A stretch of 21,568 nucleotides of DNA, from IMG/VR virus record IMGVR_UViG_3300027151_000054, positions 1 through 21,568 of that record, one strand, 5' to 3'. The notes below the pieces were generated by a model. It saw only the letters and a list, made by a program, of their open reading frames with translations, had not been told where the DNA came from and ran no database searches. Positions 14,818-20,853 of this stretch are shown here, piece after piece; position 1 is the first letter of the stretch, and each line of letters begins with the position of its first letter. Made by a program: the position numbers and the translations under genes. Origin of the DNA: a virus.

Positions 14818-15008
14818 GCCAATTCGAATCTGGTAAACCTGTAAAAACATTATTAGCTGAATATGTTGATGGTGGTCCTAAGTGCATAAGAGACGATTGT
14901 GATATTCGTATACAGAGCTCTGAACGAACTATTTTATCATCTGACATACCGATGCTTGAAGAGAATGTAAAGAGATGTGTATCGTGCGGAAAAACCTGGA
15001 AGGAATAA
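14814..15008 (+). CDS. Small Cys-rich (zinc-ribbon-like) protein
   Basis: 64 residues with two cysteine pairs, CIRDDC and CVSC, about 29 residues apart, the layout of a small zinc-binding fold. The rest is polar. It overlaps gene 46 by 4 nt (ATGA) and ends 7 nt before the deformylase start, so it belongs to the recombination operon. The function is unknown. Zinc binding is inferred from cysteine spacing only. Confidence 0.75.
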   Translation: MSQFESGKPVKTLLAEYVDGGPKCIRDDCDIRIQSSERTILSSDIPMLEENVKRCVSCGKTWKE

Positions 15009-15015
15009 ACATATT

Positions 15016-15534
15016 ATGGTACTAGACTTAGTTAAACCTGATCATCCTTTATTGAGGACAAAGTTGGAGAGATTTGACTTCAACAAACAACCAACTAACC
15101 CTCATGAGTTAGCTAACAACCTAATTGAGACAATGATTCACTATAAAGGGTTGGGGCTTTCTGCAAACCAATGTGGACTACCTTACCGTGTATTTGTCCT
15201 GTGGTCGAATCCAACAAAGGTTATGTTCAACCCTGTTATTGCTGATGTATCGACGGAAGAGATTCTTTTAGAAGAAGGATGCTTGACTTATCCTAATTTA
15301 TTCGTTAAAGTGAAGCGTCCTAAGCTGATTCGTATTCGTTATATGGATTCACATGGCGAGGCTCATACAGATAAGTTTACAGGAATCTCAGCGAGATGTG
15401 TACAGCATGAGATGGATCATCTTGATGGTATAATCTATACATCAAAGGCTAACAAGTTTCATTATGATCAAGCAATGAGACAGCGTAAGAAATACAAACG
15501 TGAATATAAGGTACCAGAATATGCAGAAAATTAA
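15016..15534 (+). CDS. def: Peptide deformylase
   Basis: Removes the formyl group from the N-terminal methionine of new proteins. 172 residues with all three family motifs: GLGLSANQ (residues 45-52; usual GxGxAAxQ), EGCLT (87-91; usual EGCLS, Cys89 a metal ligand), and QHEMDHLDG (130-138; His131, Glu132 and His135, two metal ligands and the catalytic base). The ATG at 15016 is chosen over an upstream GTG at 14977, which would run 32 nt into the preceding gene; AAGGA lies at 15000-15004. Phage deformylases are known, mostly in cyanophages; no photosynthesis genes are seen here. The basic C-terminal tail (QRKKYKREYK) is an extension beyond the catalytic core. Confidence 0.95.
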   Translation: MVLDLVKPDHPLLRTKLERFDFNKQPTNPHELANNLIETMIHYKGLGLSANQCGLPYRVFVLWSNPTKVMFNPVIADVSTEEILLEEGCLTYPNLFVKVKRPKLIRIRYMDSHGEAHTDKFTGISARCVQHEMDHLDGIIYTSKANKFHYDQAMRQRKKYKREYKVPEYAEN

Positions 15535-16375
15535 AATAGCAGAACTGTTCTACAGTTTGCAGGGTGAGGGAAAGTATGTAGGTACACCTAGTGTATTCTT
15601 GCGTACTTTTGGTTGTAACTTTACCTGTGGTGGGTTTGGTATGCCAAAGGATGAGATGTCAAATGAACGGTTCAAGATTCAACCTGAACAATACAGGAAG
15701 TATGATGACTTACCTCTTGTACATACTGGATGTGATTCATATGCAAGCTGGGATGTTAGATTCAAACACCTATCTCCATTAATGACAACTGGTGATATTG
15801 CAGAAAAGATTGTTGACATGCTTCCAGAGAAGAAGTGGAACAAAGAACATCTTGTGATTACAGGTGGTGAGCCATTGCTTGGATGGCAACGTGCTTTTCC
15901 GGAGTTACTGACTCATGAAAGTATGAAGAACTTAAAGTATGTTACTTTCGAGACAAACGGTACTCAGAAGATAACAGATGAATTTAAGAAGTTTCTATTT
16001 AACTACAGTAACAAGTACGGTATGGGTGATACAGAGTTTACATTCTCTGTTAGTGCAAAGCTGAGTGCCTCTGGTGAGAGTTGGGAAGATGCAATCCTTC
16101 CGCAAGTTGTAAATACATACAACACCTACGGTCAAGTGTATCTCAAGTTTGTGATCGATAAAGATACAGACATTGAAGAGGTTGAACGAGCTGTCAAAGC
16201 ATATAGAGAATACGGACTAGGATTAGAGTGTGATGTCTACTTGATGCCAGTTGGCGGAACAGATGTCAAATACTTTAGCAACTATAAGCAAGTTGCTGAG
16301 ATGGCAATGAAGAAGGGCTGGAAATATAGCCCACGATTACAAGTTGATATTTGGCGCAATGCCTGGGGAACATGA
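15521..16375 (+). CDS. queE: QueE-like radical SAM enzyme (7-carboxy-7-deazaguanine synthase)
   Basis: QueE turns 6-carboxytetrahydropterin into 7-carboxy-7-deazaguanine, an intermediate of preQ0 used for tRNA queuosine and, in some phages, for DNA base modification. 284 residues. The N-terminus IAELFYSLQGEGKYVGTPSVFLRTFGCNF carries the QueE signature SLQGEG (12-17; the stretch is given only as landmarks). GGEP (115-118) is the SAM-binding motif. The cluster cysteines appear as Cys32 and Cys36, with the third probably Cys71 in GCDSYASW, which aligns with the CDSxxxW that follows the third cysteine in other QueE proteins. That implies a 34-residue insertion inside the usual CX3CX2C. The ATG at 15521 overlaps def by 14 nt; an upstream in-frame start at 15500 is less likely. 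Confidence 0.88.
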   Translation: MQKIKIAELFYSLQGEGKYVGTPSVFLRTFGCNFTCGGFGMPKDEMSNERFKIQPEQYRKYDDLPLVHTGCDSYASWDVRFKHLSPLMTTGDIAEKIVDMLPEKKWNKEHLVITGGEPLLGWQRAFPELLTHESMKNLKYVTFETNGTQKITDEFKKFLFNYSNKYGMGDTEFTFSVSAKLSASGESWEDAILPQVVNTYNTYGQVYLKFVIDKDTDIEEVERAVKAYREYGLGLECDVYLMPVGGTDVKYFSNYKQVAEMAMKKGWKYSPRLQVDIWRNAWGT

Positions 16376-16376
16376 T

Positions 16377-16898
16377 ATGAATGAAACAACAAGTCGTTGG
16401 ATGTCAGCAAGACAATACAAGTATGTGAGTACAAAGGAATATCACGATGCGTTTCCTTGTGCGTACAGACAATGGAGAGCGGATAGTCACTGTAACTTGA
16501 TTCACGGGTACAGCTTCTCTATGAAGTTTTACTTTGGTACGGATAATCTTGATGTTCGTAATTGGGCTGCTGATTATGGTGGTTTAAAAGAACTGAAGAA
16601 TGTACTAGAGAGTCAATTTGATCATACGTTGTTAGTAGCAGAAGATGATCCTGAACTTAATTTCTATCTACAGTTACAGGAAAGAAAGCTAGCTAAGCTA
16701 ACAATTCTTCCTAAGTTAGGATGTGAAGGTCTTGCTGATCAGCTATACAAGTATGTTAATGGTGTCTACATTCCAGATATGTGGGGGCCAAGTGAATCAG
16801 AACGTCTATGGTGCTATAGAGTAGAGGTACGTGAAACCCAAAGCAATATGGCTTTCAGAGAAGGTCATCGCGAATGGAATGAGGACTTGTTTGCATAA
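16377..16898 (+). CDS. QueD / 6-pyruvoyltetrahydropterin synthase family protein
   Basis: Member of the 6-carboxytetrahydropterin synthase fold, the step before QueE in preQ0 synthesis. 173 residues. Catalytic residues of the family are present: Cys39 in CNLIHG, Asp82-His83 in FDHTLL, and Glu153 in VEVRET. Of the three usual zinc histidines only one is clearly kept: the FxxAHR site reads FPCAYR (Tyr30) and the HGH site reads HGY (His43, Tyr45). The protein either uses other ligands (His38 is nearby) or has changed function, so I give no gene symbol. GGGGAA lies 7 nt before the chosen ATG, and the gene starts 1 nt after the queE stop. Placement beside queE supports a pathway link. Confidence 0.82.
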   Translation: MNETTSRWMSARQYKYVSTKEYHDAFPCAYRQWRADSHCNLIHGYSFSMKFYFGTDNLDVRNWAADYGGLKELKNVLESQFDHTLLVAEDDPELNFYLQLQERKLAKLTILPKLGCEGLADQLYKYVNGVYIPDMWGPSESERLWCYRVEVRETQSNMAFREGHREWNEDLFA

Positions 16899-18617: not shown

Positions 18618-18650
18618 GAGGTTGTGATTAGTTTACAACCTCTTTTTTTT
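18618..18650 (+). terminator. Intrinsic terminator overlapping a promoter start
   Basis: GAGGTTGT (18618-18625) pairs perfectly with ACAACCTC (18635-18642) around a 9-nt loop, followed by eight T residues. It would stop transcripts from the upstream genes. RNA begun at the promoter just upstream would start at about 18624, lack nearly all of the 5' arm, and so escape termination. Confidence 0.85.
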
Positions 18651-18662
18651 GAAAGTTATATT

Positions 18663-19229
18663 ATGAAGAAGTATTTTGCGATGACAGCTATTGCATTGGC
18701 TGTAGTAGGATGTGCAAGCAATCCTAATAAGATGACAGAGATCAAGGAAGCTCCTAGAAGCGCTACCTCTACGACCATTCCAGAATGGTTTGTCACTGGT
18801 CCTGCTCCTGATGGTAAGGATATTATTGTCACAGCAACTGACACATCGCGTGAGATGCAGTTTGCTATTGACAAGGCTACAATGAATGCTCGTGTTGAGT
18901 TGGCCAACAGAATAAATATTAGAGTACAGTCTATGGTACGTGAAAGCGTTACTGAAGAGGGTGCTGGTAAGATGAAAGATGTAGAACGAGAAGTGGAACG
19001 TGTATCAAAGTTGGTAACGAATCAATCTCTTTCAATGTATACTAGAGATAAATTGCTAGTAGTAAAAGAAGATGACGGATTCCGTGCTTATGTGATGCTA
19101 AAGTTGAACGTTGACCAAAGTCGTCGTTTGGTAGATAATACACGTAAGGGCTCTCGTGAACGTGATGACAAGTTCGATGAGCTGGATCAATCAATTAAGA
19201 AAGAAAATGCAGAAGGTAAAAAGTCGTAG
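18663..19229 (+). CDS. LPP20-type lipoprotein
   Basis: 188 residues with a short signal peptide (MKKYFAMTAIALAVVGC) and lipobox V-V-G-C, lipidated at Cys17. Residue +2 is Ala, not Asp, which in Gram-negative bacteria favours sorting to the outer membrane. The mature part has PEWF near residue 39 and an ATDTSREMQFAIDKATMNAR segment followed by VELANRI, the pattern of LPP20-like lipoproteins. The C-terminal third is helical and charged. The ATG at 18663 is preferred to an upstream in-frame ATT-region start at 18624 because it gives an exact signal peptide. The leader lacks a strong ribosome site (GAAAG only). The role in infection is unknown; altering the surface to block other phages is one possibility. 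Confidence 0.85.
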   Translation: MKKYFAMTAIALAVVGCASNPNKMTEIKEAPRSATSTTIPEWFVTGPAPDGKDIIVTATDTSREMQFAIDKATMNARVELANRINIRVQSMVRESVTEEGAGKMKDVEREVERVSKLVTNQSLSMYTRDKLLVVKEDDGFRAYVMLKLNVDQSRRLVDNTRKGSRERDDKFDELDQSIKKENAEGKKS

Positions 19230-19356
19230 AAAAGCAAACGCAGTAGCTAAGGATCTTCGGACTCCTAAGTACAGACTGCGTGTTGTTGAATCTAAAATTG
19301 CATACGACAGAAAAAAAGTCAAAAAAGTTCTTGAAACTGTTGACCTGTCGTTATAA
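19207..19356 (+). CDS. ArfA-like alternative ribosome-rescue factor
   Basis: 49-residue, very basic protein. Residues 10-40, landmarks NAVAKDLRTPKYRLRVVES and AYDRKK, match the ArfA core of E. coli ([31 protein letters not shown]): both have N-A-hydrophobic, a helix turn, xPxFRxRV, a basic loop and a Y-x-R-K motif. ArfA frees ribosomes stalled at the end of broken mRNAs by recruiting release factor RF2. The start codon is inside the lipoprotein gene (23-nt overlap) with only a purine-rich AAGAAAG upstream, so translation is probably coupled. A hairpin covers the last third of the gene, as in bacterial arfA. The short hydrophobic tail (VLETVDLSL) lies in that part. Confidence 0.72.
   Translation: MQKVKSRRKANAVAKDLRTPKYRLRVVESKIAYDRKKVKKVLETVDLSL
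19305..19350 (+). other. Hairpin within the 3' end of the arfA-like gene
   Basis: CGACAG (19305-19310) pairs with CTGTCG (19345-19350), GTCAA (19318-19322) with TTGAC (19340-19344) and AGTT (19326-19329) with AACT (19335-19338). A bulge of seven A lies on the 5' side. No T-tract follows. It spans codons 33 to 48, before the stop codon. Confidence 0.6.
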
Positions 19357-19359
19357 ATA
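19352..19359 (+). promoter_or_regulatory. T4-type late promoter in the tRNA region
   Basis: Exact TATAAATA overlapping the stop codon of the arfA-like gene (19354-19356). The predicted start is near 19365. No large gene follows; the transcript would be about 177 nt long, ending at the terminator at 19511-19541. Confidence 0.8.
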
Positions 19360-19395
19360 AAGTAAAGTACAATCTGTTTTGTAAGGAATAAAAGA

Positions 19396-19482
19396 ATGCA
19401 GAGTATCCATCTATCACCGTCGACGCCCAAGGCCTCTATTGAGGTTGGGTATCGCTTTGCGTCATGGAGTAATGACGTATAG
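19396..19482 (+). CDS. Possible 28-residue ORF in the late transcript
   Basis: ATG with AAGGA (19383-19387) at good spacing, then 28 codons beginning MQSIHLSPSTPKA and ending in TAG at 19480-19482. Its codons are more GC-rich than those of its neighbours and coincide with the paired arms of the hairpin, so RNA structure may explain the sequence better than coding. If translated, its stop codon ends at the first G of the antiterminator arm, which would suit a leader peptide. Confidence 0.3.
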   Translation: MQSIHLSPSTPKASIEVGYRFASWSNDV

Positions 19483-19510
19483 GGGTTCATAGTGTACTTG
19501 TATTCTATAA

Positions 19511-19541
19511 CCCCAGTCCTAAACAAACTGGGGTTTTTTTT
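19511..19541 (+). terminator. Intrinsic terminator before tRNA-Gln
   Basis: CCCCAGT (19511-19517) pairs with ACTGGGG (19527-19533) around a 9-nt loop, followed by eight T residues. The preceding AA can also pair with the first two T residues. An alternative upstream pairing uses the same CCCC. Confidence 0.92.
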
Positions 19542-19733: not shown

Positions 19734-19822
19734 GGGGGGTTATCGGGGCTGGGCCCTGCGCTGTCTTGAAAACAGATGGACTTTTAACGAGGTTGGAGTT
19801 CGATTCTACCATCCCCCCGCCA
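19734..19822 (+). tRNA. tRNA-Ser (TGA), irregular T arm
   Basis: Anticodon loop CTTGAAA (anticodon TGA) in the context GTCTTGAAAAC, as in bacterial tRNA-Ser(TGA); a long variable region marks a class II tRNA; encoded GCCA end. The acceptor is six G-C pairs (19734-19739 with 19813-19818). The seventh pair and the T stem do not both close: a bulged A (19811 or its neighbour at 19808) or a T-T mismatch must be allowed. The D and variable arms are also weak. It may be functional or decaying. Confidence 0.75.
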
Positions 19823-20053: not shown

Positions 20054-20076
20054 GTAAGATCACTTTGGAGATGTCG

Positions 20077-20853
20077 ATGAAGATTATTGTTGGAATTGTA
20101 CTTGCGCTTAGTTCTATATGTTATGCAGCACAAAGACCCAGTGTCCTATTGTATAATTCTACAGACGACAAGCACATATACAATGATAACATAAATGTGA
20201 CAAGACCAATTGCTAGCATTACTAAGTTAATGACAGCGATGGTAACTTTGGATCACGATAAGAATTTGAGTAGACAGTTAATGTTATCATTAAAAGTAGG
20301 TGGTAGTTTACCTAGACAGAAGTACACAAGGCTAGATCTTATCAATGCAATGTTAGTAAGAAGTGACAATGCAGCAGCAGAAACACTTGCTGATGACTAT
20401 CCAGGTGGTAGGAAAGCGTTTATCAAGGCAATGAATGACCATGCAACACAAATGCAATTGAGTGCTAAGTTTGTAGATCCAACTGGCCTTAGTAAACAAA
20501 ATACCGGTACTGCTAGCGATGTAGTATCAATGTTTGAGATTGCATCTGGTTACTGGGTAATAAGAGATGCAAGTGTTCAGAAGCAAATAGTAATAGATGC
20601 TAAGTTTAAGAAGAAAGTAAGAAAGATTGTTCTTAATAATACTAATAAGCCAATCTTGTTTGAATTTGATAACGTAATAGTTAGCAAGACAGGATTTACT
20701 AATTCAGCAGGATGGTGTGTTGGATTAGTGGTAGTCAAAGATGAAAAGAAGTATGTTGTTGTTGTACTCGGAGCAAGAAGTAAACAAAAACGTGCTGATG
20801 CGATTGATGAGGTGTTATACAATTATGTTGTTGACACAGAAGTAATAAAGTAG
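20077..20853 (+). CDS. Secreted D-alanyl-D-alanine carboxypeptidase/endopeptidase (PBP, peptidase S11)
   Basis: Low-molecular-weight penicillin-binding protein fold, acting on peptidoglycan peptides in the periplasm. 258 residues. Signal peptide at residues 1-17 (MKIIVGIVLALSSICYA), then all three active-site motifs: SITK (Ser47 nucleophile, Lys50), SDN (96-98) and KTG (204-206). It lacks the C-terminal domain and amphipathic anchor of DacA-type enzymes (about 400 aa) and is nearer in plan to PbpG/PBP7, a DD-endopeptidase that cuts cross-links. Carboxypeptidase and endopeptidase activity cannot be told apart from sequence. GGAG spacing favours ATG 20077 over ATG 20071. A role in lysis, cell wall change during infection, or entry are all possible. 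Its stop overlaps a tRNA by one base. Confidence 0.9.
   Translation: MKIIVGIVLALSSICYAAQRPSVLLYNSTDDKHIYNDNINVTRPIASITKLMTAMVTLDHDKNLSRQLMLSLKVGGSLPRQKYTRLDLINAMLVRSDNAAAETLADDYPGGRKAFIKAMNDHATQMQLSAKFVDPTGLSKQNTGTASDVVSMFEIASGYWVIRDASVQKQIVIDAKFKKKVRKIVLNNTNKPILFEFDNVIVSKTGFTNSAGWCVGLVVVKDEKKYVVVVLGARSKQKRADAIDEVLYNYVVDTEVIK

Follow-up and report, generated by a model that had tools for sequence, protein, structure and literature searches.

A short-linker ArfA-like gene on a T4-like phage fragment as a probable ribosome-rescue factor

Phages break much mRNA during infection. A small gene on a viral genome fragment raises the question of whether a phage carries its own factor for freeing ribosomes from such messages and whether a hairpin within the gene controls its expression. 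The fragment, analyzed over its whole 21.6 kb (the window), is T4-like as judged from translations read by eye; it encodes tail sheath and tube, portal, prohead protease, and major capsid proteins, a UvsW-like helicase, and a gp46/47-like nuclease, followed by tRNAs. The major capsid protein, the one protein of this set that was searched, has its nearest records in a Stenotrophomonas phage, Sinorhizobium phages, Methylophilales phage Melnitz, and Pelagibacter phage Mosig. Reading by eye also indicated consecutive open reading frames (ORFs) resembling peptide deformylase, QueE, and QueD (14977 to 16898, plus strand), a possible 7-deazaguanine pathway, and a D-alanyl-D-alanine carboxypeptidase-type protein with SxxK (SITK), SDN, and KTG motifs (20065 to 20853, plus strand), which is unexpected in a T4-like phage. 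A tRNA-like sequence missed by ARAGORN (19734 to 19818, plus strand) scored 43.2 of 47 bits with the tRNA-Sec model, below the cut-off; given its TGA anticodon, it is probably tRNA-Ser.

The gene in question (19207 to 19356, plus strand) has an ATG start, 49 codons, and a TAA stop at 19354 to 19356, and it encodes a basic protein, MQKVKSRRKANAVAKDLRTPKYRLRVVESKIAYDRKKVKKVLETVDLSL. Its first eight codons are shared with the 3' end of an upstream lipoprotein-like ORF. Residues 11 to 36 (19237 to 19314) carry the ArfA core, N-A-V-x3-L-x-x-P-x-Y-R-x-R-V ... K-x2-Y-x-R-K, with three residues fewer than classical ArfA at the place of the KGKGS motif. Two viral loci are identical to the window over 911 aligned bases, which leaves one distinct close relative, L008; remoter relatives do not share a tail. 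L008 differs from the window by two synonymous and no amino acid changes in codons 1 to 30 and by eight amino acid changes and four synonymous ones in codons 31 to 49. This substitution pattern indicates that the ORF encodes a protein under selection, conserved in its core and loose in its tail.

Direct scans of the window protein returned no match in Pfam, including ArfA (PF03889) and DUF7230 (PF23876), none in NCBIfam, and none by sequence in the PDB; the one PHROG match was to phrog_20887, an entry without a function (E value of 2e-4). The PF03889 search suggested by the sequence-only reading thus came back empty. Many relatives matched DUF7230: 12 of 22 family members did so at E values up to 1 (best, 6.3e-13), phage relatives reached as many as 49 bits, some of them above the cut-off, and a SAR86 homologue (from L137) was also above it. 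Relatives were found in 35 viral contigs with the single sequence, in 365 with a family alignment, and in 540 with a broader alignment, the best 80 being retained from each of the two alignment scans; the AKDL[RK]TPK form alone occurs in at least 540 viral contigs. Across this short-linker branch, the C-terminal tail is highly variable. As judged from these matches and those described below, the viral branch is large, mostly unrecognized, and also resident in SAR86.

Profile comparison bears out the match of NAVAKDLRTPKYRLRV...YDRKK to the ArfA core. When a profile built from 26 phage members was aligned with a profile of 21 purely bacterial ArfAs, hhalign gave a score of 31.4 (P = 4e-6, a value that applies to one comparison), against at most 15.8 in 200 column shuffles and 8.6 for the reversed profile; a separate SAR86 profile scored 27.9 with bacterial ArfA, against 15.7 for shuffles. 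With the E. coli ArfA sequence alone, the phage profile scored only 22.4, and the window protein by itself gave 6.0 bits with the bacterial ArfA model, under the best shuffled sequence (9.6). In the alignment, NAVAKDLRTPKYRLRVVESKI, a three-residue gap, and AYDRKK are paired with the ArfA segment, and the gap falls exactly at KGKGS, so that this mRNA-channel motif is absent from the window protein. The position of E. coli F25 is taken by Y22, followed by LRVV, and that of A18 by a lysine (K15).

Bridging proteins join the two families. Roseobacter phage CRP-212 (NPVAKILRTPRYRQRKVMPKKGKGSYKR), the viral locus L034 (KDLRTPKYRLRVVKPKKGKGSYVR), and a bacterial ArfA, L184 (NALKAQLRTPRFKMQQQTPKKGKGSYSRK), mix features of both. 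CRP-212 and L034, which are outside both profiles, scored 37 to 38 bits with the phage profile and 33 to 41 bits with the bacterial one, where the best of 3,000 shuffled sequences reached about 10; the Bambus protein likewise scored far above background with both, and the same CRP-212 ORF was matched by E. coli ArfA and by the phage family. L034, CRP-212, L334, and Pseudoalteromonas phage J2-1 exceed the PF03889 cut-off. The J2-1 ArfA exceeds both curated cut-offs over overlapping residues (41.3 bits for PF03889 and 28.6 for DUF7230), yet it has no KGKGS; therefore, a missing KGKGS is by itself no bar to ArfA membership. Because of the profile comparison, the bridges, and J2-1, we take DUF7230 and the short-linker branch to be divergent ArfA, and we hold with high confidence that the core of the window protein, the segment that in ArfA contacts RF2 and the decoding center, is homologous to it (31.4 against 15.8 or less, plus the intermediates). 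We do not file the window protein under PF03889, since the profile failed and KGKGS is absent. The ArfA identity first proposed from the sequence thus stands for the core, although the protein itself has no Pfam match, and the link required relatives and profiles; a simple family search was insufficient.

We propose, with a probability of roughly 70%, that the product of the gene is a ribosome-rescue factor belonging to this divergent short-linker branch. ArfA orders on the ribosome together with RF2. By analogy, the basic C-terminal half of the phage protein would occupy the empty mRNA channel of a ribosome stranded at the end of a broken message, while the NAVAKDLRTPKYRLRV segment would fill the decoding center and add a strand to RF2, with Y22 in the place of F25; host RF2 would then release the nascent chain. 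In E. coli ArfA, F25 and Q27 to E30 have roles in the RF2 contact (PMC8012679). Ribosome binding, the use of RF2, and a benefit to the phage are what we infer from this homology; our literature search found no experiment on a member of the short-linker branch.

The same branch is found in bacteria. Six loci came from a scan of genome contigs; the titles of five name SAR86, and that of the sixth is Gammaproteobacteria bacterium TMED112. In two of these (L129 and L131), translations show the gene overlapping the end of tatC in the order ubiE-ubiB-tat. Of the 101 genomes searched within the same order, 20 match at an E value of 0.01 or better, a few of them weakly, and the upstream ORF is tatC-like in all 13 loci where one was readable (none was found at L150). 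All 12 genomes tested from the SAR86 set encode tmRNA, and classical ArfA (PF03889) had no match in any of the 6 tested; these genomes are metagenome-assembled or from single cells and may be incomplete. In SAR86, the gene is a resident one, with the pattern of tmRNA plus a back-up that is seen in E. coli. Among 13 large viral contigs that carry the gene, no tmRNA exceeded the Rfam cut-off, and weak matches were uninterpretable. With these findings, the range of ArfA grows to include hundreds of viruses as well as SAR86, a lineage abundant in the ocean.

It is unlikely, if worth weighing, that the protein is a ribosome binder of ArfA ancestry that does not perform non-stop rescue, for example, one that acts in hibernation or blocks host translation. 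The loss of KGKGS and the very diverse tails of the branch would suit such a role, as would the lysine at the A18 position, where an A18T change in E. coli ArfA abolishes release (PMC8012679). However, CRP-212 has a lysine there too and is above the Pfam cut-off, J2-1 is above the ArfA cut-off without KGKGS, and the genomic setting in SAR86 fits a back-up factor.

A second alternative concerns regulation. Bacterial arfA makes active protein mainly from mRNA that is cut or ended in an intragenic hairpin (PMC8012679), and the sequence-only reading extended this design to the window gene: a hairpin at 19305 to 19350 (plus strand) would be cut or would end the mRNA, and expression would be induced when tmRNA is overloaded. 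The 46-nucleotide segment folds somewhat better than shuffled sequences (−10.2 kcal/mol, z = −2.6), as does the whole gene (z = −3.3), and four viral relatives contain strong intragenic stems where 0.28 would be expected. The stability is nonetheless ordinary for the contig, where equally stable folds make up 9.8% of all 46-nucleotide windows and lie inside 42% of 60-nucleotide blocks. In L008, the outer stem is changed at four positions and retains three of its six pairs; the inner stem could still pair via G-U, and the best fold of the segment is a different one (−6.6). Tails from 66 distinct homologues, a set that leaves out the window's own tail, have a mean z of +0.28, and 4.5% fall below −2, so neither the pairs nor the fold is conserved in the family. 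The stem is short, contains a 7-nucleotide bulge, and has no U-tract. Its 5' arm covers codons 33 to 35, within the Y-x-R-K motif, so that cleavage in the outer stem would harm the core that it had been expected to spare, and the tail that would be removed, VLETVDLSL, is of mixed composition, unlike the strongly hydrophobic ArfA tail. The hairpin is probably a chance fold, and we regard hairpin-based self-sensing of this gene as very improbable.

Other signals around the gene point to simpler expression. A terminator-like hairpin with a T-run precedes the lipoprotein-ArfA pair (18618 to 18650, plus strand; GAGGTTGT...ACAACCTC), and the first such site 3' of the ArfA-like gene is intergenic (19509 to 19541, plus strand; AACCCCAG...CTGGGGTT), with a further ORF in between. 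The stem scan found no strong stem before the stop codon. Because no terminator or strong hairpin precedes the stop, unlike in E. coli arfA, the protein is probably made from intact mRNA whatever the saturation of host tmRNA. A T4-type late-promoter motif, TATAAATA, overlaps the stop codon (19352 to 19359, plus strand) and is kept in L008; it probably serves the downstream small ORF rather than the ArfA-like gene. The window has four such motifs (at 33, 6187, 7188, and 19352), all on the plus strand and each 34 to 44 bases 5' of an ORF start, against a chance mean of 1.68 with both strands counted. The downstream ORF, of 28 codons (MQSIHLSPSTPKASIEVGYRFASWSNDV; 19396 to 19482, plus strand), lies between this motif and the terminator; L008 has three synonymous changes and one amino acid change (S to L) in it, and among the loci examined it was found in L008 and the near-identical copies only. 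We also considered an RNA gene at 19380 to 19541, a stretch highly conserved in L008, but a late promoter, the 28-codon ORF, and a terminator explain it better.

The intragenic design is plausible in other viral ArfAs. We defined a strong stem as having at least seven pairs, five or more of them G-C, between the core and the stop codon. Of 36 bacterial ArfA genes, 10 have such a stem (1.4 expected in shuffles). Of 207 viral tails, 4 have one, where 100 shuffles averaged 0.28 and never gave more than 2; the viral excess is a lead and not a test, since the thresholds were chosen after L011 was seen. The four are L011 (5086 to 5115), L334 (near 3100), L331 (near 560), and L119, which is the cultured Citromicrobium phage RXM (near 3088). 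T4-like Acinetobacter phages such as ZZ1, Acj9, and 133 exemplify short-linker phages that have no intragenic stem. In L334, GAAAAGGCCGCTGCGAAGCGGCTTTTTT precedes a T-rich stretch, and the protein has a hydrophobic tail ending in LFYWFLI. In L011, L334, and L331, the ArfA gene is convergent with its neighbor, and the two might instead share a bidirectional terminator; even so, these ORFs have no stop before the stem or terminator. The idea of an intragenic stem fails for the window gene but finds similar arrangements in these relatives, in which the arfA/brfA-type stop-less design can be tested.

Least probable of all is that the protein has no kinship with ArfA and is a basic phage peptide in which AK-x-x-RTPKY resembles the uS14 N terminus as an rRNA-binding motif or by chance: the family profile weakly matches uS14 type Z in the PDB set (E value of 0.5), and hhalign gave 25.7 for uS14 (an approximate sequence) against 22.4 for E. 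coli ArfA alone, but the match is limited to 17 residues and leaves out the second half, the SAR86 set favors ArfA (24.0 versus 16.9 with the same approximate sequence), intermediates connect the family continuously to ArfA, and J2-1, over both Pfam cut-offs, largely refutes the idea. We judged uS14 mimicry to be a short chance or convergent match.

A divergent rescue factor thus remains our preferred reading of the window gene. More tentatively, and at slightly less than even odds, we speculate that DUF7230 as a whole is a large viral ArfA clade that has dropped KGKGS, is mostly free of tmRNA control, and serves phages as a constitutive rescue factor, that its SAR86 members are a native back-up to tmRNA, and that the branch may have moved between phages and bacteria. 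Pfam lists the function of DUF7230 as unknown, and we found no paper on it in a literature search of partial coverage; the proposal gives this family a testable function.

The window protein resembles E. coli ArfA (YhdL, PF03889) in being small and basic and in its core, which in the latter reads N-[AP]-[IV]-x3-L-x-x-P-x-[FY]-R-x-R-V ... K-x-Y-x-R-K. Unlike E. coli ArfA, it is three residues shorter at KGKGS, has a lysine at the A18 position, ends in a short tail without strong hydrophobicity, and is encoded without a conserved intragenic hairpin or terminator. DUF7230 is matched by its phage relatives, while the model leaves the window protein itself undetected. Phage-borne ArfA homologues have already been annotated in HTVC027P (gp30; PMC12753301), RXM (gp10; PMC8953757), J2-1, and Bambus; these are near enough to classical ArfA to be so named, and most keep KGKGS, J2-1 being without it. 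Phage-borne ribosome rescue has hardly been studied, and phage ArfA received brief annotation only in the papers that we found.

ArfT of Francisella and BrfA of Bacillus, compared by description only, are also short, basic, release-factor-dependent rescue proteins, but they are regarded as independent of ArfA. At the position of F25, ArfT lacks a hydrophobic residue, and it works with either RF1 or RF2 (PMC6299226). ArfA and BrfA are specific in their choice of release factor. A preprint on DRT2 defense proposes that host ArfA helps to release protein from stop-less mRNA (PMC11100668), and for that reason an extra ArfA could matter in phage-host conflict. Another phage-borne rescue device is the tmRNA of Melnitz, whose major capsid protein shares 68% identity with that of the window, and of other phages, but that system is RNA based and works by trans-translation, tagging the peptide for decay (PMC9004378).
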